A stretch of 64,000 nucleotides of DNA from an uncultured Flavobacteriales bacterium (GTDB lineage Bacteria; Bacteroidota; Bacteroidia; Flavobacteriales_D; Parvicellaceae). Below are positions 3,328 through 63,854 of this stretch, in pieces. The DNA lies in assembly GCA_943787725.1 (NCBI GenBank), contig CALSNM010000007.1, positions 1 through 64,000 of the forward strand. The letters run 5' to 3'. The notes under the pieces were generated by a model, which saw only the letters and a list, made by a program, of their open reading frames with translations, did no database searches and had not been told where the DNA came from. The position numbers and the translations under genes were made by a program. Numbering within the stretch: the stretch's first letter is position 1; each line of letters starts with the position of its first letter.

Positions 3328-5003
3328 ATGCGGATAGTTTTAGTACTCTTTTCCTTTCTTTTATTCAATGCTTACTTCTCTCAAGAAAAGTATTGGGTTT
3401 ATCTAACTGACAAAGATGGTGTAGAATTTAATCCGCATAATTATTTTGATCAAAAAGCTATTAATAGAAGAATAAAAAACAACGTTCCATTAAATCATTT
3501 TACGGACAGACCTTTACGAACTGACTACCAAGACAAAATTTCCCATATTGCAGAATTCATTTGCGGACATACAAGATGGTTTAATGCCATTGCATGTAAA
3601 TTAACTCCTCAACAGCTTATTGAAATACAAAACCTCACTTTCGTAAAAGAGGTTTCAGCTATGAGCACCAGGACAGTATTTGCTGAAGGAAATGATTACA
3701 AAGAACTGCATAAAGGTGAACAAGGTCTTTTGGAAGGTCAAATTGCATCGATGCAAGGGAAAGAGTTTACAAAAAAAGGATTGACTGGAAAAGGGATTCG
3801 AATTTGTATTATTGATGCTGGCTTTCCAGATGTAAACACTTCTTCAATTTACCAGCACATTAGAGATAATAACCGAATTATAAAAACATGGGATTTCAAA
3901 AAAAACAAACCCGATATATATAAATACAGTTCTCATGGTTCAACTGTGCTTTCCTGTATAGCTGGAAAAACAGATGGCGTTTTTATCGGTCTTGCTATTG
4001 ACTCAGAATTCTTACTTGCAAGAACTGAAAGAATACTATATGAAGGAGACTGCTGAAGAAGAGGATTGGTTGATGGCCATTGAATGGGCTGATAAAAACG
4101 GAGCTGACATTGTAAACAGCTCTCTTGGGTACACTTCGGCAAGGCATTTCGTTGAAGACATGGATGGCAAAACCTGTATTATTTCTAAGGCTGGAAATCT
4201 CGCAGCTCGAAAGGGCATCTTAGTGGTTAATGCTGCCGGAAACGATGGAGCATGGAAGCTGGAAGTACATCGGAGCACCAGCCGATGCTGACAGCGTTTT
4301 ATCTGTTGGAGGAATAAATCCTTGGACCGGCTTGCACACCTCTTTTAGTTCTTATGGACCAACAGCTGACCACAGATTAAAACCAAATCTTTCTGCCTTT
4401 GGTCATGTTATGGGATATAGCCCAGGGATTGGAGTTCATGAAACACAAGGAACATCTTTTTCTAGTCCTTTGGTAGCTGGATTTGCTGCTTGTGTATGGC
4501 AAAGCGATACTACCCTAACAAATATGGAGTTATTCAAGAAACTAGAAGAATCTGCAAATCTGCATCCTTACTTTGATTATGCTCATGGCTATGGAGTTCC
4601 GCAGGCAACGTATTTTACTGAACCAGTTAAATGGGACCGAGGAAAGCGAAACTTTTACACTAGATGAAAGTGAATCCTTTATCCAAATAACGATTAAAGA
4701 TGAATCATTTCACTATAGAAGATAAAATCGTTTTCGATTATTTTCCCTATACATTTAACAAGCTAAATAGAATTCCATGGCTTCACTTTCAAGATACATA
4801 TAGCACTTTAGATAGTAATATTAAAAAAAGCGGTGCTGGTTATTTCTATTACCATATTGAAAATGATGCAGGTTATTTAGATGAATACCTTGTTTTATCT
4901 GTTTACGAAAAAAATATTTTAAGAATAAGAAAAGAGCGAAAACATCGGAAAAACGTATCGATTTCATTACAAAGGAACTTCAAAAACAATAACTCTAGAA
5001 TGA
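3328..5003 (+). CDS. S8 (subtilisin-like) serine peptidase, multiply frameshifted
   Basis: ORFs 3328-4056, 3974-4291, 4230-4667 and 4700-~4930 tile one protein: Asp (ICIIDAGFPDV), His (SSHGSTVLSCIAG), Ser (GTSFSSPLVAGFAA). The C-terminal frame ENIGKTYRFHYKGTSKTITLE* ends at the TGA at 5001-5003. Confidence 0.8.
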
Positions 5004-5740
5004 GGATAGTGCCAAAACATAGTATTCTTTTCATCCTAATTATAAGCTGTACTTCGATAGCTGCACAAACCGTATTAATAAAACAAACGGTACCTGAAAA
5101 TTTTGAAGATATAGACGAAGGACACGGACCAAACAGAGCGCATTTCTCCTACCCATACTTTGCATTAGGAATGCATACAGATGGTTATAGCCATGAAAAC
5201 GACACCATTATTTCACCTGTATATGGGAGATCCATGGAGATGCGGTTTGGAACACGCACCCGGCTTAAATTAAATCGATTTCTTGGATTTGGAATTGACT
5301 ATGAATTGGGTATTCCGCGCATTTTATAAACCTAAAAGACGCTTATGCTTTAGCCAACTTTCTCCCCTGATGTGAAAAAAGCTAGGTATCAAATCTATAC
5401 GATAGGTGCAGCTAGTTACTTTCAATTTAACTTCGAACCTAAAAGAGGCAATCAACTAGGATCGTATTTAGATATAGGAGTTTTTGGTGGTTATAATTTT
5501 GGAAGAAAATACAGCCAAACGTTGAAAATAGGGAAAGAAAAATCGGTTTACACAGCTTAAAAAATTACAGGATTTTGAAAAGCTAAATTACGGAGCAATT
5601 ATTCGTTTTGGGAAGAGAGTATGGGCAATATATGCTAAGTATAGATACTCCAATAGCTTTAAAAACAAAACAACCACATGGTAATTACGAGCTACCTCGT
5701 TTGACCTTTGGATTTGAATATTTCTTTGGAAAAATATAAC
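5000..5740 (+). CDS. outer-membrane beta-barrel-like protein, frameshifted
   Basis: ATG at 5000 overlaps the upstream stop (ATGA); signal peptide MRIVPKHSILFILIISCTSIAAQ; continues in ORF 5372-5560 and ends ...LPRLTFGFEYFFGKI* near 5740. Confidence 0.6.
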
Positions 5741-5802
5741 CAAAAACCGGGTGGTCACTTTTTAAAATCAATATCTAAATTAAACTCAGATATTGGCGCA
5801 AC

Positions 5803-6809
5803 CTAGTGCAATATCTTGAACACCAACTCTTTCAATAGTTCTCCATCCGAGATGGAAACATTCCCAACCCCTTTGGAGCGAAGATCATAATCTTTTAGGT
5901 ATCCAAATATTCTGGCCAACTTTGCTTTGGTATAGTTTTGAGCTGCTACGCGGTAATCTTTTAAAAAATATGGATGAACTCCCAATATAACAGCAAGTTC
6001 TTTTTCAGATGATTTAGGATGCATAGAAATGATACTTCATTAACTTCGTAAAATAATTATACAAGCGTTCCCAACGTTGCAGGAAATGGATAATTCTTCG
6101 GGTTTTGTGCAAAATGATTTACGATAAAATTCGATTTATAAACATTTTTTTCTGCCAGTGCATTGCTTAATTCAAACATATTGAAATCCTTTGAAATACC
6201 AACATTTTTCTGAATTACATCTTCATCGATAACCGTTTCACTCTCAAGTATAACTTTTAATTTCTCAATTGTATTAGCAATCTTACTTAAATCATTTCCT
6301 AAATACTCACCCATTAAATGGGAAGCTTTTGGCTTTATTTGAAGCCCTTGGCTTTTGCAAAAACCAACTATCCAATCTGCTAATTTGTAATCTTTTATTT
6401 TTTCGGCCGTGTAGAATTCGGTATGCTTGGCAAGTAGCTTTCCGATTTTTTTTCGTTTATCAATGGTTTTATACTTGTAATTAAAAACAAGAATAGTAGA
6501 AGCTAAAGGATTGGTAATATAAGCCTCCAGTTGATCCATTGTTCTCGATAAATGTTGCGCCTCTTTTACAATTACTACCTGGTATTGAGACATCATCGGA
6601 TACCGTTTAGCTGCACTAATTATATCTTGCATAGAAACATCCTTACCATAAAGAATTGTTTGGTTAAAATCTCTTTCAGAAGCTTCCAAAACATTTTCAG
6701 CGATGAAGTCAGATATCTTGTCTAAAAAGTATCCTTCATCCCCTTGTAAAAAGTAAACAGGTTTGTAAACCCCACTCTTCAATTCCTTTATGATTTCTTC
6801 GTATTTCAT
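5803..6809 (-). CDS. holA: DNA polymerase III subunit delta, one apparent frameshift
   Basis: MKYEEIIKELKSGVYKPVYFLQGDEGYFLDKI...; C-terminal ORF 5803-6024 (HPKSSEKELAVILGVHPYFLKDYRVAAQNYT) completes the family pattern in another frame. Confidence 0.9.
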
Positions 6810-17627: not shown

Positions 17628-20600
17628 TTAATTAAGAATTACTAATTTTTCAAATTTCTCCACTTTTTCTCCTCCCTCGTTTAGAACTTTCAATTTATAT
17701 ACATAAACCCCTCTACCTATTTTTTCTCCGATAATCATCACGTCCATTCCATACAATACCTTCAGACCTAAAACCCTCAGAGCGCACTCTTTCAGTGATA
17801 GATTTAACTCAGTTTCCCTGAAACGGTAAACACTTGTATTTGAACATCTAAATAGTCACACAGCTGATTATGCTCAAAGTAAAACTCCGTCCGCGTAGTA
17901 AAAGGGTTAGGGTAATTTAACACGTGATCTAAGGTGAAGTTTTCTTCCTTAGCAACCACAAATTCGATTTCACTTTTTTCTGAATTGTTATAAACATCCC
18001 ATACTTTTAAACTCAACGTATGATTTCCTTCTTCTAAATCGTAAAACGGGTAAGATATTCTACCACTTTTATAAGTGTCCAAATCAGCTTCATAAAATCA
18101 TTTAATATAATAGACTCAGAAGTATTTTCATCAATTACGGCCTCAATGTTATGACCAACACCATTACCAACCATATTAATTCCATTTTCATCAAAAACCT
18201 TAGCAAATAAATCAGGATTCTCATCTGTTATTCCACCTGAAACGAAACTATCATCGTTCATATACAGCGAAATATCGGGACCCTGATCATCAGAAATAGC
18301 AGCAGTATCGATTCCACCAATTACTGCATCTTCGCTGTATCCTTGGGCATCTTCTTCTCCATTTTCAGCATAATAACTTATGCGTGAATTCCCGTATTGA
18401 AACGAAATATCTTGAGGTACCACAAAGGAAAACTTAAAAACACCATTTAAAACAGTAGCCTTCCCTTTGTAAACAACATTTTTCCATGTTTCAAATGGCT
18501 CTACAGAAGATCCTGGACTATTAGCTAAAGTAGATAAGCTTGAGCTTTTTGTCGTATATCGTTGGATAAACCACCCCATTAAAACTTGTTATATTTCTGA
18601 CCTGTATAATCTTCTACATGTCCCCACTACAGTGACAACACTCAACGCTTTCATAGTATCAATTGCTGCAGTAATTGATACACCGTTAATGGAATCTGTT
18701 ACAATTTGGTGTTGCGGCAAAGCCAGTCTAACTGCCGGATCTCCCAACAATGCAAATTTTCTAAAATTGATATCGCCTCCACCATTTTGAACATACAAAT
18801 CTTTTGTCTCTAGGTAAACATCTCCAATTCGTTGGGGCATTCCATCAACTTTGTCATAGATTGTACTATGAAAATGCTTATTTAATCTCTTATTACTACT
18901 GTTGTAGACTAAGCGAGTTGTTGTAAATAGAGCTATTCCTCCGCCATCTGGATTAAGTACCACATATTCACCACCTGAAGTTCGATCGTGGTCATCATAC
19001 CTACTGAATTCACATGTAGCAGTCATAAAACTAGGTAACTTCACACCATTAGTCCAATTCCTAATTGTTGGAACTCTTAAAATACGTTCGTGAGCCCATC
19101 CCGTTTCACCACCATGGCCGATATAGTTCACTAAAAACGCCCCCTTTTCAACTCTTTGCTGAATCGCTTCTTCACACCCTATATTTTCATCCCCTCCCGG
19201 AGTAGTTGTTTCCACAAAAGCATCCATGTGTAATTTAACAATATTCATGCTTTTATTATTTACACGAATTGTATCCGCCATTTCTTCTGTATCCTAAAAT
19301 AAACGTTTCCATCTTCATCATCACTAACAAACAAACAATATTTCGCCAATCATTTAATGTTGCATTAGATTCTCCATTGGAGCAAGATGTAGTTATTCTG
19401 GTTTGATAGCAGAAACTGAACTATATCCTTTGATTTTGGCAACCATATTCATTTGCTTCACTCAAAGAATTTACGGGTAGTCTGCCGATAGCAATATCCA
19501 TCAAATCAAAATTATTCATTGCTCCATTATCTGATAGAATGGCAAAATAATCATCAGTAGCATAAGTACTTGTTATACTTAAAGATTCTGTCGACTCATA
19601 GGTCGGTATAAAACTCATGTTATGACCTAACCTATTTCTAGCATCATAAGTCGCATCGCCAAAAAACAAACAATATCTTGGGTATCAAGATCTGGATCTA
19701 ACCCTGCTCGCACATAAAACATTCTCAAAAAATGCTTTATCGCTGTTGCATCTCTCATCCCAGAAGAATATTCATTATAAATTTGACTTGGGAGTAACAA
19801 CATGACAAATTAACCCATCATTTGCTTGGTGGAAACTTGCTAAATCAATTGCTGCAGACATATACTCTTGCGGCACAATTATAATCAAATCAGCAAACCT
19901 AATCCATGTAAATTTTGAGATAGTACTTTGTGGTGGAATATCAGGAGCTTTTGACAAGGCGTCTTCCAATGCAATAAAGGTTCTTAATGAATCAGTATTC
20001 ACTTTGTATTCAGCTGCAGAACCAACTGTATTAAAATCAACAATAGAGACATTCGACAAGTCTGTTACCTCCCATATTCGGTGTATTTTATCAACGTTGC
20101 CTACAGAAAATCGACTTACATTCCCTAATCCAACTGAGGCTACATCTCTAAATTCCATCTGACTTCCTGTCATTGTCAATGCCCTTGGCACATTTACTTC
20201 TAAATAATCTAACCAGCCCTTTGAAGAAGATAATCCATTTTTATTATACGTAATTTGAACATCCACGCTATTTCCATTACCCAGGTAATCCAATACTCCG
20301 CTAACACTTTTACCCTAATGGCGCATAAGTTCCGGTGCCAGATGTTCCAACAGGAATGTCTAGTGAATTTCCTCCAGAGCTAATGTATAACTAGTACCAT
20401 TGCTAGAAGCGTGTCCAATAATTTTAGCATAAACTCTTATCGAATCCGTATTAACAATGTTCGGCATCGAGAAACTATAATTATAAGATGTTTGAACATC
20501 GTAAATATCTCCATACCATTGTTTTCCGGATTTTCCTAAATTGTAATCATCTTCCTCGATAAAATCATAATCAATAAAAGTTGTTACCAAATTCGTTTCT

Positions 20601-21514
20601 GAACTAGAAGATAATTGTGCTCCCCCCATTCGTTTCGGCGCTGGATTAGCATTATTAATATTGACAAAATAATAGGAGGTATCACAATATTCATGGGATT
20701 TATGTGAAAAAACACTACCATCAAAACTCCATCTATGCGGTCCCTTAGCATAAAAGAGAAGGTAATCGCCATTATTAAAGATCCATCATTACCATCTTCA
20801 ATAAGAATAGCATTTTTCGATATATCATCAGGTCGATAATCATTATTGTTTTCAGACAACAACCGGAACCATTTCCAAAAACATTAATTGCATCTGGAAC
20901 TTAAAGAAGACATATCTACACCCATGTCATTTAAAAAGGAATAATCAATTTTATAAACACCATCTTCCACAACACCAACCTTATACCATTCTCCAGAACC
21001 TGACGCAAAAGCTGAGGTAGTCAAATAGGATGCTTTTGAAGTTGTTAATGCACTTCCTGAAACGCTTAAACTTCCTTCATACCTAACCAATTTTTCGAAC
21101 TGTCCGGATGTCGGATTTTTCCGAACCTCATTAACTTCAACAACTGCATAAAACTTTTTCCTTTTATCTGTAATATTTGTTTTAAAGTCAAACGAGGATC
21201 TTAATTTTAGAAACATCTAATTAATGAAACTTCAGAACTGGTTAATGGAACTACTTCAACTTCGTTACATTAAACTTAACAGACTGTGTTGTATATTGGA
21301 ATATACTTTAACAAGTAGGGTTGTTCTTTTTCAAAATCCCAGTATCCATTGGATGAATGAAATACACTGTTTATAATGCATTCCATTGATATTCATGGAA
21401 TAGACACCATTCCATTCCAATTCTTCAATAACTTCTTTACCTTTTTGAGAAAAACCTGAAAATACAGAAAATTGGAAAAAAAAATAAACTAGAATTAGAA
21501 ATTTTGTACGTCAT
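17628..21514 (-). CDS. porU: T9SS C-terminal signal peptidase/sortase PorU (C25 gingipain-like), in at least eight frame fragments
   Basis: ORFs at 17804, 18034, 18589, 19421, 19775, 20360, 20584 and 20884 tile one protein. Catalytic His (FLVNYIGHGGETGWAHERIL) and Cys (SFMTATCEFSRYDDHDRTSGGEYVVL) present; C-terminal sorting-like end EKVEKFEKLVILN*. Confidence 0.88.
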
Positions 21515-31862: not shown

Positions 31863-33089
31863 ATGACGTATAAAGAAACGGTTGCTTTTCTTTTCGAACA
31901 ACTTCCTCAATTTCAAAACATAGGAGGTAAAGCTTACAATGGCAAGTTAGATAACATCATTGCTATTTGTGAATTATTAGACAATCCACAAAATAAGTTC
32001 AAAACAATCCATGTTGCAGGAACAAATGGAAAAGGCTCTGTTTGCAATATGCTTGCCTCCATTTTTACTCAAAGCGGATATACTGTTGGATTATTTACCT
32101 CTCCTCACCTACTCGATTTCAGGGAAAGAATAAGAATTAATGGAGAAGTTATTCCTAGAAAACTATGTAATTGACTTTGTGAAAAACCATAACACTGTTT
32201 TCAACTAAATTCAACCTTCCTTTTTTGAATGGAGCACAGCACTGGCTTTCAACTATTTTGAATATAAGAAAGTTGACATTGCGATCATAGAAACAGGCTT
32301 GGGTGGAAGATTGGACTCTACCAACATTATAACTCCTCTAGTAAGCGCCATTACTTCAATTGGAATAGATCATACACAATACTTAGGAAATACGCTGGAA
32401 GACATCGCAAAAGAAAAAGGAGGAATTATAAAGCCGAACATCCCTGTGGTTTTGGGTGAAGGAATCGAAAAGCAATCTGTTTTTGAAGAAATTGCTTTAA
32501 CTAACAACTCCCTCGTATATACAGCGACTCAAAATAATAACCAACCTTTTTCTAGTCTTAAAGGTGACTTCCAAAAAAACAATGTAGCAACTGCCCTAAC
32601 CGTTATTGATTTGATCCAAGAAACATTTTCAACAATAACTCCTACATCCATTAGCAAAGGCTTGCTATCCATAAAGACAAACACTGGTTTAAGAGGGCGG
32701 TGGGAAACCTTACAATATTCTCCTAAAGTTATTGCTGATATTGGTCATAATGTGCACATGCAATTACACAAACAGTAAAGGAACTAGAATTAGAAACTTA
32801 TAATAACCTACATATTATTTGGGGAATGGTCGCAGAGAAAGAGATTGATAAAGTTATTAATTTACTTCCGGAAAATGCTTCTTATTATCTATGTACGCCA
32901 AATATTTCTAGAGCTTTAAGCACAAAGAATTAGAAAAATCCTTCACAAATAAGCAAACTAAAAACAGCTTTCTCGTCTTGTTCAGAAGCTTTTAAAACGG
33001 CTATTAAAACTGCAAAATCACACGATTTAATAGTAGTGGGTGGAAGCACTTTTGTAGTATCTGAAATACTTAGCGATTTTTATTCCTAA
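31863..33089 (+). CDS. folC: bifunctional folylpolyglutamate/dihydrofolate synthase, multiply frameshifted
   Basis: TIHVAGTNGKGSVCNMLASIFTQSGYTVGLFTSPHLLDFRERIRING; IIETGLGGRLDSTN; VIADIGHN; end VVGGSTFVVSEILSDFYS* at 33089. Confidence 0.88.
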
Positions 33090-56469: not shown

Positions 56470-57380
56470 ATGAGTTTTAACCTTGATAATATTCCTTCTC
56501 AAAAAGGAAAAATAGCGATTGTAACCGGAGCTAATTCTGGGCTGGGAAAAGAAATTACAATTGGATTAGCAAAAAAAGAATTCAAAGTAATAATGGCTTG
56601 CCGAAATCAATCGAAAGCTGAATCAGCAAAAGCGGAAGTATTATCTAAAGTAAATAGCGCGGATATAGAAATAATGCTTTTGAACCTTAACAGCTTAAAA
56701 TCTGTTCGGAATTTTGCTACAACATTTGCTGAAAAATACGATAGCCTCGATTTATTAATTGAGAATGCTGGAATTATGATTCCACCACTTGCTAAAACAG
56801 AAGATGGTTTCGAAAGCCAAATGGGTGTTAACTATTTTAGTCATTTTTTACTTACCAATTTGCTATATCCCATTTTAAACAAAACTGAAGGAGCACGAAT
56901 AGCAACAACGAGTAGTTTGGCGCATGAAAGGGGAAGAATTGATTTTGATAATTTAAACGCAGAAAAAAGTTATTCCAAAATTGGGGCATATGGGCAAAGT
57001 AAATTAGCTTGTCTACTGTTTGCATACGAACTAAAAAGAAGGTTAGAAAAAGCTGGCAGTAACGTTATTGCTGTTTCCTCCCACCCAGGAGTATCAAAAA
57101 CAAACTTATTTACGAATATTCCTATCGATTGCTCAATTCCTTATGGCGCCACTTCTACCCAATATTTACGCACCCACCTAAATATGCTGCCTTACCAACA
57201 TTGTACGCAGCCTTAGGCCCTGATGTGAAAAGTGGAGATTATTTTGGACCTACTGGCTTTAACGGAATGAAAGGAAAACCTGGAAAAGTAAAATCAAAAC
57301 CACATTCCTACGACGAAAAAATAGCATCTGAACTATGGGATGTTTCTGAAAAGCTAACTGGAGAAAAATTTGTGTTATAA
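56470..57380 (+). CDS. SDR family oxidoreductase, frameshift near 57165
   Basis: IAIVTGANSGLGKEIT, ENAGIM, YGQSKLACLLFAYEL; continues in ORF 57129-57380 (KYAALPTLYAALGPDVKSGDYFGPTGF). Confidence 0.9.
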
Positions 57381-57602
57381 AAAGGGATACAAAACCGATT
57401 CCGGGTGCACTAAAACCACTTCAAAAACATATAGGATTGGAAATTAATTGATGTATCTTTATGAACGAAAATTGACCTTAATTATAGATAAATAACTAAA
57501 AGACTAAATTGACCAGGAAGGTTACCTTCCGAAATAAATACAGCGGTAAATTAACGGTCTAATTATTGTTAAGCTGAAAACGAATAACTTAATTAAAATA
57601 AC

Positions 57603-58331
57603 ATGAAAAAAGCAATTTACCTTACATGCAGCATAGCTCTGTTTTCTGTCTCCACAGCAACTGCTCAATTTGATAAACTCAAAAAAACCGTGGACAAAAA
57701 GATTGAGGCAGTAAAACCATCTTCACCTGGTTTGAGTCAAGAAGAAGTTGGTGCCGGATTGAAAGAAGCATTAAACAAAGGAATAGAAAAGGGAGTGGAG
57801 CAACTTTCTAAACCAGATGGCTTTTTCAAAGACCTTTCAATAAAAATACCACTGCCAGAGGAGGCAAATAAAGTTGAAACTAAATTACGTAGCATTGGTC
57901 AAGGAAAAAAAGTTGACGAAACTATTGAATCAATTAACAGAGCTGCTGAAGATGCTACCACTGCTTCAAAAGACATTTTTGTAGAGGCAATTAAAGGAAT
58001 GAGTATTAATGATGCGATGAGTATTCTCGATGGCGAAGATAATGCAGCAACAAAGTTTCTCGATAAATCAACAAGAGCAGATTTGATAAGTAAATTTGAG
58101 CCTATCGTAAAGATTTCATTAGATAAAGTAGGTGCCACAAAAAACTGGAAGGCAATTTTCAGTACTTACAATAAATTACCATTTGTAGAAAAAGTAAATC
58201 CTGATCTTGTTGAATATGCAACCGTTAAGGCTATTGATGGATTGTTTGTTCAAATTGCCAAGGAAGAATTAAAAATTCGACAAGACCCTGCGGCCAGAGT
58301 AACTGATCTATTGAAAAAAGTATTTGGTTAA
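57603..58331 (+). CDS. DUF4197 domain-containing secreted protein
   Basis: GLSQEEVGAGLKEALNKGIEKGVEQLSKPDGFFKDLSIKIPLPEEA...RQDPAARVTDLLKKVFG. Confidence 0.9.
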   Translation: MKKAIYLTCSIALFSVSTATAQFDKLKKTVDKKIEAVKPSSPGLSQEEVGAGLKEALNKGIEKGVEQLSKPDGFFKDLSIKIPLPEEANKVETKLRSIGQGKKVDETIESINRAAEDATTASKDIFVEAIKGMSINDAMSILDGEDNAATKFLDKSTRADLISKFEPIVKISLDKVGATKNWKAIFSTYNKLPFVEKVNPDLVEYATVKAIDGLFVQIAKEELKIRQDPAARVTDLLKKVFG

Positions 58332-58399: not shown

Positions 58400-59180
58400 T
58401 CAATAAAGTGAAGCAAAATATGGAAAAGCCTTTGTCAATTTGGAACCATACCAACTAAACATCTCTCCATCAACTATTTTTATTTCAACTTCAGGAAAAT
58501 GTTTTTTTAGCTCTTGAACATGCTTTTTATTGAATGGGAATGGTTCAGTAGAAAGCAAAATAATTTCTGGTTCCAAGGCTTTTAACCCCTCTACTTTTAG
58601 CTCTAAATACCTGTCTGCCATTACCACATTTATATATCCGGCATGGTACAGCATATCATCAATAAATGTGTTTTTACCAACTACCATATAAGGATCATTC
58701 CAAATAAAGTAAACCACTTTTTTTAAATCAATTGGCTGTTTAAAAGCATCTTTAGCTTTAGAGATAGTCTTTAATATTTCTATTCCCTTTTCCCGGGAAT
58801 TCGTAAAACGAGAAACTTCAAATATCATTTCAAGAGCCTCTTCAAACATACCAATGTCTGACATCCAAACTGAATAGTCTTTCTCTAATGCAACAATATC
58901 TTCTTTCGTATTCTCTTCCTTATTTCCTATTATTAAATCGGGTTTCAGTGCAGCTATTTTTTCAAAATCTACGCATTTAGTGCCCTCCTACTCTTGGCTT
59001 GGAATCAAACCATTCTTTCGGATGCACACAGAATTTTGTTACTCCCACTACCCTTTCGCCGAGCCCTAGTTCAAATAATAATTCAGTTTGAGATGGAACC
59101 AATGAAATTATCCGTAACGGAAAAACGGGAAGTAATACTTCCCGTTTCATTTGATCTATTATTTTAATTGTATCTCTCAA
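58400..59180 (-). CDS. BtuF/helical-backbone metal receptor-like substrate-binding protein, frameshift near 58980
   Basis: RIISLVPSQTELLFELGLGERVVGVTKFCVHP...RVGG|TKCVDFEKIAALKPDLIIGNKEENTKEDIVALEKDYSVW...MSDIGMFEEAL. Confidence 0.82.
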
Positions 59181-60639: not shown

Positions 60640-61140
60640 TTAAATAGCCAATAATCTATCGCGTTTATTGTTAAGAATTTCAATCTGCTTTTGGAAAGCT
60701 TCATTCTGAGAACACTGAAACATTTGAGGCATACTTGCCCAAGCGTTAATATCTTCAGAAGCAGAAGACAATTGAATTTGCAACCCTATATCTTCAGGAT
60801 TTGCAGCTACTTTTTCAGTTATGCTTGCAAAGCTTTTAATTCCTTCTGCATAATCTTCCAGGAACATTTTACAATCTTCACTTATTGGGTTTTCAATTTC
60901 CTCTTCAATCTCTTTTATTTCTAAAGACAAATCATTCTCATAATCAACTCTTGCAACACTATCAACTGCAAGGGATGAAGTATCAATAATCACGGAATCT
61001 TTTATTATTAACACACTATCCTCTTCTACCCATTTATTCTCCACTGATTTATCCTCAGGAGCAACTAAATCTTCTGATGATTCACTACATGCTACAAAAA
61101 TTACAGATAATGAAAATATTACTATTAGACCTTTCTTCAT
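60640..61140 (-). CDS. hypothetical lipoprotein
   Basis: Lipobox VIFVACSES; acidic, helical; 166 aa. Confidence 0.75.
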   Translation of the reverse strand: MKKGLIVIFSLSVIFVACSESSEDLVAPEDKSVENKWVEEDSVLIIKDSVIIDTSSLAVDSVARVDYENDLSLEIKEIEEEIENPISEDCKMFLEDYAEGIKSFASITEKVAANPEDIGLQIQLSSASEDINAWASMPQMFQCSQNEAFQKQIEILNNKRDRLLAI

Positions 61141-61152
61141 ATTTTTATTTTT

Positions 61153-63854
61153 TTATTCGTTCAGTAATTCCAGTGTTTCTTGCGCTGAAATAATCTTACC
61201 ATTGAAATCTCCGATAACAAACGTATCTATCAAGCCTTCTCTTTCCAATTCAGCTTGAAACTCTTCGGCTTCATCAAATGTCTCAAACCATCCTAGGAAA
61301 GACCTAATTAAACCTGATTCCGGATCTCTCTTAAATGTAACATCACCAATTGCAAGGTATATGTCCAGCACTTCCGTTGGAACATTTCCTGTATATTCCC
61401 CTACTTGAACTCTAAATCGAACTAATTCCCTACGCACAACACTTCCTGTTGGTTCTACAGATTCAACTATAACATCTTTAGAAGTATCTACAACATCAAA
61501 ATTCGCTTCGGATAGCTTAATACGCTTACCATCCCTGAACGCAACGATAAATGAACCTTCATATCCCATTTCTAACAATGCAATTCTATGTTCTGCAGCT
61601 TTACTTTTTTCATCAGAAGAGCCTGAGTAATACCTAAACAAATCATCATCGCCTTCAGTGTAGACCACTTCTCTAGCATCACTAAACACACTGGTAGATA
61701 ATTCTTTGCGAAAAGCGCCAATCTGCACCCTGTATGTTGTTCCCAGGCTAATATCAACAGTATTTAGAGTCGTATCAACCGCACTAACTATACTCGTGTC
61801 AACTACACTCACTATACTCGTGTCAACTGCACTCTCTGAACTCGCCGCAGCGGCAGCGGCTGACAGCAATAATTCCGCTCTTGCTTTATCGATTGCTTCT
61901 TGACTTACAAATTCTAAAGCTTCATCTTTCGAAACTTTTGCAATACCTTTCACATCCATTCCGTTTTTCTTGAATTGATCCATTGCAGCCATAGCTTCTT
62001 CCAAAGTATTGTAACCTCTTACAACATACTCGCGTGTACCATCATCTCTTTCAACTACGTGGAATCCTGGTTGGCTTAATAATTTATCTCTAATTTCTTT
62101 CGGTAATTGTCCTTCATCCGAATCAAAAACTACCGCTACATCTACAAAACCTTCGCTATCATTGGCAAAACCACTAGTATTAATAGGAAGACTTGAACCT
62201 TCACCCAGTGTTACGCTAGCAACATCTATACTATATTCCGTACCCAAAGAGTCCTTATATTTTCTATAAGCCAATTCAAAATCAGCATCAGACATCGTAA
62301 CTCCAACCTTATTAACCATTGCATCGGGTTTTGTTGCTTTCTCTTCATCTAAATAATCTGGAACACCGTCCAAATCATTATCTAATGGACATCCAAACTC
62401 ATCCACAAGAATTCCTTCAGGGGTTTTTGCGCACAAATCAATAAAGTCTACTATTAAATCACCATCAGAATCAATAGAATCTAATTTTTGCATATCATCA
62501 AACATTGAAGGCTTATCTTCCTCAATAGAGTCTATTTTTCCAGAATTCAGATCGATAGAAAGTGCAAAATGCGAATATAAAAATCTATCATTTGCCTTAT
62601 TCCCTTGTCTGCCTCCCAAACTTTCAATAGTGATTCCATCAACCAAATCAGAAAACGCAAAATGCATGGATGTTCCTACTCTAAATTTTATTCGATCAGT
62701 TATGTGAAAATTTGCACCAACTTCTAAAGGAATAGCAAACGTCCTTTCCGAATATTTACCAAAACCATCTAAATCCAATTCTCTTATATCACTTTCATAA
62801 ACATAATCTCGATAAATTTCGGTTGCATCTTCAGAGCCAACAGATCCTTCCTCCATATTTCTAATCGTCCCATCAGACCAGTAATTATAGTAATTACCAT
62901 TCGCATCGTACATGTCAGATTTGGACAAGAACTCCATTGACTCTATACCAAAAGATATATATGGATCCACATTTCTTTCTGGTTTTAGCAGCTGCTTAAA
63001 ATTATAATTTAAAGTCCACCCACCTGTTGTTATGTGAGAATTGAAATTTAAATTGCGTGTTTCAGACCTTTCGCTTCCACTCACCTGACCAAATAATACA
63101 TAAAAACTTATGTCTAAGTAATCATTAATTGGATTTATCAAGCGTAAATCGTAACCTATTCTACTAACAGTTGGATGATAGCCTTTGTGATTACTCCCTA
63201 TATCTCCATAAAAAGTAAACATCCCTGTCCCCAAACTTAATTGCGGTCTAAATACTATTTCCAATGGCTTCGGTCCTAAACTCTCCTTTTCATTGGAAAC
63301 CTCCATAGCATCTGAAGAGTCTGAAACATCTATAACTGATGTAGAATCTGGAACACCCATAACCGCTGTAGAATCTGGAACACCCATAACCGCTGTGGAG
63401 TCTGGAACACCCATAACCGCTGTAGAATCTGGAACACCCATAACCGCTGTAGAATCTGGAACACCCATAACCGTGTAGAATCTGGAACACCCATAACCGC
63501 TGTGGAGTCTGGAACACCCATAACCGCTGTAGAATCTGGAACACCCATAACCGCTGTAGAATCTGGAACACCCATAACCGCTGTAGAATCTGGAACACCC
63601 ATAACCGCTGTAGAATCTGGAACACCCATAACCGCTGTAGATCTGGAAACCCATAACCGCTGTAGATCTGGAACACCCATAACCGCTGTAGAATCTGGAA
63701 CACCCATAACCGCTGTAGAATCTGGAACACCCATAACCGCTGTAGAATCTGGAACACCCATAACCGCTGTGGAGTCTGTGGTGTTTTCTTGAGAGAAACC
63801 AACAACGGTCAATAAACTGCAAATAAATAAGAATATGAGGTGTTTAATTTTCAT
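61153..63854 (-). CDS. SPOR-domain outer-membrane-type protein with N-terminal DSTAVMGVP tandem repeats and TSP3-like Ca repeats; one net frameshift inside the repeat
   Basis: Signal peptide ORF (63330-63854) and body ORF (61153-63822). Body has a barrel-like segment, DSDGDLIVDFIDLCAKTPEGILVDEFGCPLDNDLDGVPDYLD, and two SPOR-like modules (YRVQIGAFRKEL, RFRVQVGEYTGNVP). Confidence 0.8.
63332..63786. repeat. 18-unit, 27-bp tandem repeat (ATAACCGCTGTAGAATCTGGAACACCC)
   Basis: Unit boundaries counted by hand; units 6, 12 and 13 have deletions of 1, 2 and 1 nt; flank unit 63305-63331 is degenerate. Confidence 0.95.

Follow-up and report, generated by a model that had tools for sequence, protein, structure and literature searches.

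A 27-bp repeat array in a SPOR-domain protein

In the window (the whole stretch of 64,000 nucleotides that was analysed; genome G000), a gene on the minus strand carries a tandem array of a 27-bp unit between a signal peptide and the body of a SPOR-domain protein (Table 1). Tandem-repeat detection returned a period of 27 bp with a score of 815, 17.4 copies and 94% matches. Counted from the signal peptide, 10 of the 18 units are exactly GATTCTACAGCGGTTATGGGTGTTCCA, and units 1, 11 and 15 deviate from it solely by two synonymous changes (GACTCC). GAT TCT and GAC TCC specify the same two residues in the frame that reads DSTAVMGVP, which holds past unit 12 as well, in unit 15, where this frame is that of the body. 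Only the two units next to the body are decayed, reading DSTSVIDVS and DSSDAMEVS. A sequence-only reading of this DNA had already described 18 tandem units directly after the signal peptide, a largely identical core and decay confined to the body-side edge; all three points were recovered here, at coordinates that differ by up to 37 bp from the 63332-63786 given there. No further copy of the 27-bp unit was found elsewhere in the genome when up to three mismatches were allowed, and a search for the repeat peptide in four genomes returned no gene but this one, plus two weak antisense matches overlying the same gene. The array is a real, lineage-specific repeat linker of an already known kind.

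Table 1 Features of the repeat-bearing gene and of other genes of the window referred to in the text
Feature	Position	Strand	Remarks
Start codon and signal peptide MKIKHLIFLFICSLLTVVGFS	63792-63854	minus	signal peptide called by inspection of the sequence
27-bp tandem array, 18 units	63295-63776	minus	16 core units, DSTAVMGVP when read in the intended frame; 2 decayed units at the body side
Units 5 and 6, three single-base deletions	63618-63668	minus	net -3, frame restored afterwards
Unit 12, single-base deletion	63457-63482	minus	puts signal peptide and body in different frames
Decayed units 17 and 18	63295-63348	minus	body side of the array
ORF from native ATG (63854), as assembled	63330-63854	minus	174 aa; stops, out of frame, within decayed unit 17
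Body ORF, as assembled	61153-63822	minus	SGYGCSRFY frame in most of units 1-11
Protein body after the array	61153-63294	minus	open to stop
Predicted outer-membrane beta-barrel domain (PorG / DUF6089 / OMP_b-brl-like)	62530-63276	minus	sequence profiles, mostly below family cut-offs
Thrombospondin type 3-like (TSP3-like; calcium-binding type) stretch	62416-62472	minus	PF02412, below its cut-off
Possible degenerate SPOR-like domain	61909-62148	minus	suggested by orthologue model; beta-alpha-beta-beta-alpha-beta order, pLDDT about 55-78
Second tandem repeat, 24 bp (DTSIVSVV/DTSIVSAV)	61770-61834	minus	linker before SPOR, about three copies
SPOR domain	61543-61740	minus	PF05036, 31.2 bits vs cut-off 21
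Possible C-terminal SPOR-like domain	61189-61422	minus	suggested by orthologue model; same beta-alpha-beta-beta-alpha-beta order, pLDDT about 56-78
Next gene, small putative lipoprotein	60640-61140	minus	DSV/DTS-rich stretch
PorU (type IX secretion sortase) gene	17628-21514	minus	NF033707, 1249 bits in G002
FolC gene	31863-33089	plus	four frame-breaking indels
TroA-like metal-receptor gene	58400-59180	minus	one extra base near 58984

Domains of the protein body

The body is 80-93% identical to the orthologues of three sister species, and dN/dS values of 0.08-0.14 indicate that it is under purifying selection. The SPOR profile PF05036, which exceeds its cut-off in the window, was matched in five relatives too, in line with the earlier assignment to the SPOR-domain envelope proteins. 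For the predicted barrel, the OMP_b-brl profile remained sub-threshold (20.8 against a gathering score of 28.7), and the DUF6089 profile scored 17.4 in the window and 27.6 in the relative L042, the latter above the cut-off of 23.2. The protein shares significant profile similarity in its barrel with the PorG / DUF6089 barrels of Bacteroidota (NF052316 on the orthologue, E 7.6e-12), but it reaches only 45.4 bits, where the equivalog cut-off is 130, and has additional SPOR and TSP3 parts. PorG was thus rejected as the identity of the protein, given this score and the better match on contig C4 of the same genome (G000:C4), where a separate PorG lies above the cut-off. AlphaFold2 drew about eight long strands in the barrel at low confidence (mean pLDDT 38.8), and the model of the full orthologue (pLDDT 43.7) gave neither barrel nor array a confident structure. 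Solved structures searched for relatives of the barrel yielded no useful match, the whole profile giving one weak match to a flagellin hook. The row of L045 was left out of the barrel alignment because the segment selected from it was not in frame. We infer from these profiles, mostly below their cut-offs, a barrel topology and regard the protein as an outer-membrane barrel akin to PorG that also carries a TSP3-like stretch and at least one SPOR domain.

The 24-bp repeat that forms the linker before the SPOR domain is strongly expanded, with many copies, in the sister genome G003 (L043). The predicted barrel-SPOR envelope protein holds two independently length-variable repeat linkers. The DSV/DTS-rich stretch of the small putative lipoprotein encoded by the next gene (DSVLIIKDSVIIDTSSLAVDSVARVD) resembles the linkers in composition.

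Likely location of the array

OmpA-like proteins have their N-terminal segments and peptidoglycan-binding domains in the periplasm, and binding to peptidoglycan that lacks stem peptides is a hallmark of SPOR-domain proteins. The protein described here has in common with OmpA-like outer-membrane proteins a predicted barrel, with a TSP3-like linker and then a domain of the peptidoglycan-binding type downstream of it. It differs from them in that a SPOR domain takes the place of the OmpA C-terminal domain and a repeat array precedes the barrel; no match to the OmpA profile was obtained in a profile search of the protein and its relatives. Since the array is flanked by the signal peptide on one side and by the predicted outer-membrane barrel on the other, with SPOR after the barrel, it should be periplasmic. 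Inferring both position and function, we consider the array most likely to be a flexible periplasmic spacer. The proposed layout would run from the signal peptide via the repeat spacer, the PorG-like barrel, the TSP3-like stretch and the second repeat linker to one or more SPOR domains. Both linkers would reside in the periplasm, the barrel would hold the protein in the outer membrane and SPOR would bind peptidoglycan, while the spacer may be flexible and of free length.

The sequence-only reading had instead proposed a spacer at the cell surface. A surface-exposed, phase- or antigen-variable segment would be consistent with an array whose length and sequence differ between species, but such a segment would not be expected N-terminal to a predicted barrel in a protein with a SPOR domain. 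Moreover, the second repeat linker directly precedes SPOR, which is periplasmic. We therefore judge surface exposure to be very unlikely.

Turnover of the unit within one genus

A 27-bp array occupies the same place in all three sister genomes (G001, G002 and G003), which belong to the same genus, and the signal peptide in front of it (MKIKHLIFLFICSLLTVVGFS) is near-identical across the three species. The number of units is 18 in the window versus 13, 12 and 11 in the sister species. More distant relatives have short, mostly acidic and non-repetitive linkers at this place, and among the sampled genomes the array is, as far as these sequences indicate, restricted to the genus. Each species has its own units: DSTAVMGVP in the window, DSTSVIEVP in G003, an alternation of DSTSVIDVA and DSTSVIAIP in G002 and a mixture in G001. 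Core units are 97% identical within the window and 95, 89 and 79% identical within the sister species, compared to 77-85% between species (77-80% between the window core and the three sisters). The last unit at the edge behaves in the opposite manner: it is alike at 21-23 of 27 positions among G000, G001 and G002, versus 13-18 of 27 positions to any core consensus tested. Unit 17 of the window is closest to an edge-side unit of G002 (25/27).

These identities indicate that the array evolves by concerted turnover of its units, with the edge units left behind. Following this pattern, DSTAVMGVP would be a derived unit that has spread recently, and the recent expansion or homogenisation suggested earlier is borne out by the contrast between core identity within the window and identity to the sisters, together with the differing unit numbers. 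The array is probably a low-complexity linker that grew in a single genus through turnover of its 27-bp (nine-codon) unit, with slippage or unequal crossing-over changing unit number and sequence, homogenising the core and leaving the edge units behind. The array shares with intragenic in-frame tandem repeats in bacterial envelope proteins (minisatellite-type linkers) a unit length that is a multiple of three, a homogenised core, a decayed edge and unit numbers that differ between species; it differs from them in that the window copy is frame-broken as assembled. It is a clear case of a nine-codon unit evolving in concert within a genus.

Openness in several frames

The consensus unit has no stop in any sense frame or in two of the antisense frames, as the sequence-only reading had pointed out; the count of five out of six frames stands and carries no evident meaning. 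Because the unit is nine codons long, every frame repeats the same nine codons, and each frame is consequently often free of stops. Of random nine-codon units built from the codons of this contig, 13.5% had no stop in any of the three sense frames, and 9% were open in five or more of the six frames, all sense frames included. Synonymous recodings of DSTAVMGVP gave 28% and 20% for three sense frames and at least five of six frames, respectively. Openness in several frames is a by-product of the local unit and needs no explanation.

But could selection keep the unit open in several frames, either to buffer frameshifts or to make alternative peptides? The three open sense frames of the window consensus would fit, as would the observation that the first three deletions of the array cost just two garbled units before the frame returns. 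However, 27 of the 36 sister units contain a stop in a second sense frame, either +1 (often from ATAGA, the window counterpart being ATGGG) or +2, and the window's own decayed unit 17 contains a stop in frame +1, at which the shifted ORF ends. On the strength of the chance estimates and the sister units, selection for multi-frame openness was rejected, and we see next to no chance that it operates here.

The broken frame and its probable cause

As assembled, the array lacks four single bases (net -4): unit 5 is 25 bp long, without two bases, and units 6 and 12 measure 26 bp each. Since units 5 and 6 lose three bases jointly, the frame is regained beyond roughly two garbled units; since four bases are missing net, the ORF of the signal peptide and the ORF of the body are in different frames. 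The frame of the signal peptide yields DSTAVMGVP up to unit 11 at most, with the exception of units 5-6, and does not enter the body, in the frame of which DSTAVMGVP resumes at unit 13. That the units after the signal peptide encode DSTAVMGVP, as stated earlier, thus holds only through unit 11, apart from units 5-6, and fails beyond, where the deletion in unit 12 breaks the frame permanently; treating the assembled array as in-frame overlooked this break. Although the 27-bp unit is a multiple of three, as in in-frame tandem repeats, the window copy has no single open frame, while in all three sister species an unbroken frame leads from the signal peptide through the array into the body.

Are these deletions real? 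The genes of the contig were compared with the syntenic contigs of the sister genomes G002 and G003. Among genes intact in both, 6 of 29 window genes contain indels of a length not divisible by three. The PorU gene contains 26 such indels specific to G000 and none specific to either sister, strongly pointing to a local patch of errors; the FolC gene differs from its intact sister orthologues by four frame-breaking indels, and the frame of the TroA-like metal-receptor gene, intact in two sisters, is broken by one extra base (GGAGGGCACTAA). Frame-breaking patches also affect 20 of 89 genes in G003, so that some of these assemblies are characterised by local clusters of indels. Short-read polishing often leaves errors uncorrected in repeats (PMC8812927), and interrupted ORFs serve as a measure of indel error (PMC9426551). 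The four deletions within the 482 bp of the array compare with 3.2 expected at the rate of the PorU patch and with 0.19 expected at the window mean for genes intact in the sisters (P about 5e-5). Because the density in the array exceeds the window average, an explanation by errors needs local clustering, and such clustering is present elsewhere.

Alternatively, the break might be real, with the gene being a recent pseudogene or the strain population being mixed for on and off alleles. The deletions are, after all, present in the assembly at a rate above the window average, and none of the four is located in a homopolymer of three or more. Turnover of the repeat could restore the frame by dropping one frameshifted unit, and a very recent loss would be compatible with the purifying selection seen on the body. 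On the other hand, this selection counts against a real break, none of the three sister arrays is frame-broken, and slippage of a 27-bp unit would not yield single-base deletions. The same window also has broken frames in PorU, FolC and the TroA-like receptor, all of them intact in both sisters. We thus consider a real break unlikely and, going by the comparison with sister sequences, assembly error as the likeliest cause of the four deletions, with high confidence. The deletions would be uncorrected errors, and the real gene would have one unbroken frame like its sister orthologues. If the breaks were instead real and reversible, deletions in a unit open in all sense frames, combined with turnover that removes or spreads damaged units, could slowly switch the barrel-SPOR protein on and off, an idea to which we attach hardly any credence. 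As a whole, the observations are probably best explained by a genus-specific periplasmic linker in an OmpA-like envelope protein, expanded by turnover, with deletions that are assembly errors. As a striking multi-frame repeat coincides in this assembly with likely indel errors, caution is warranted, and claims at the level of reading frames in this window need to be checked against the sister genomes.

In a binned count, more clusters of window-specific small indels appeared at 4000-6000 (n=11) and 57000-58000 (n=3). G003 has a frame-breaking indel patch of its own on its contig C4 (L055-L065, about 93-108 kb of the contig), in genes that are intact in G002.
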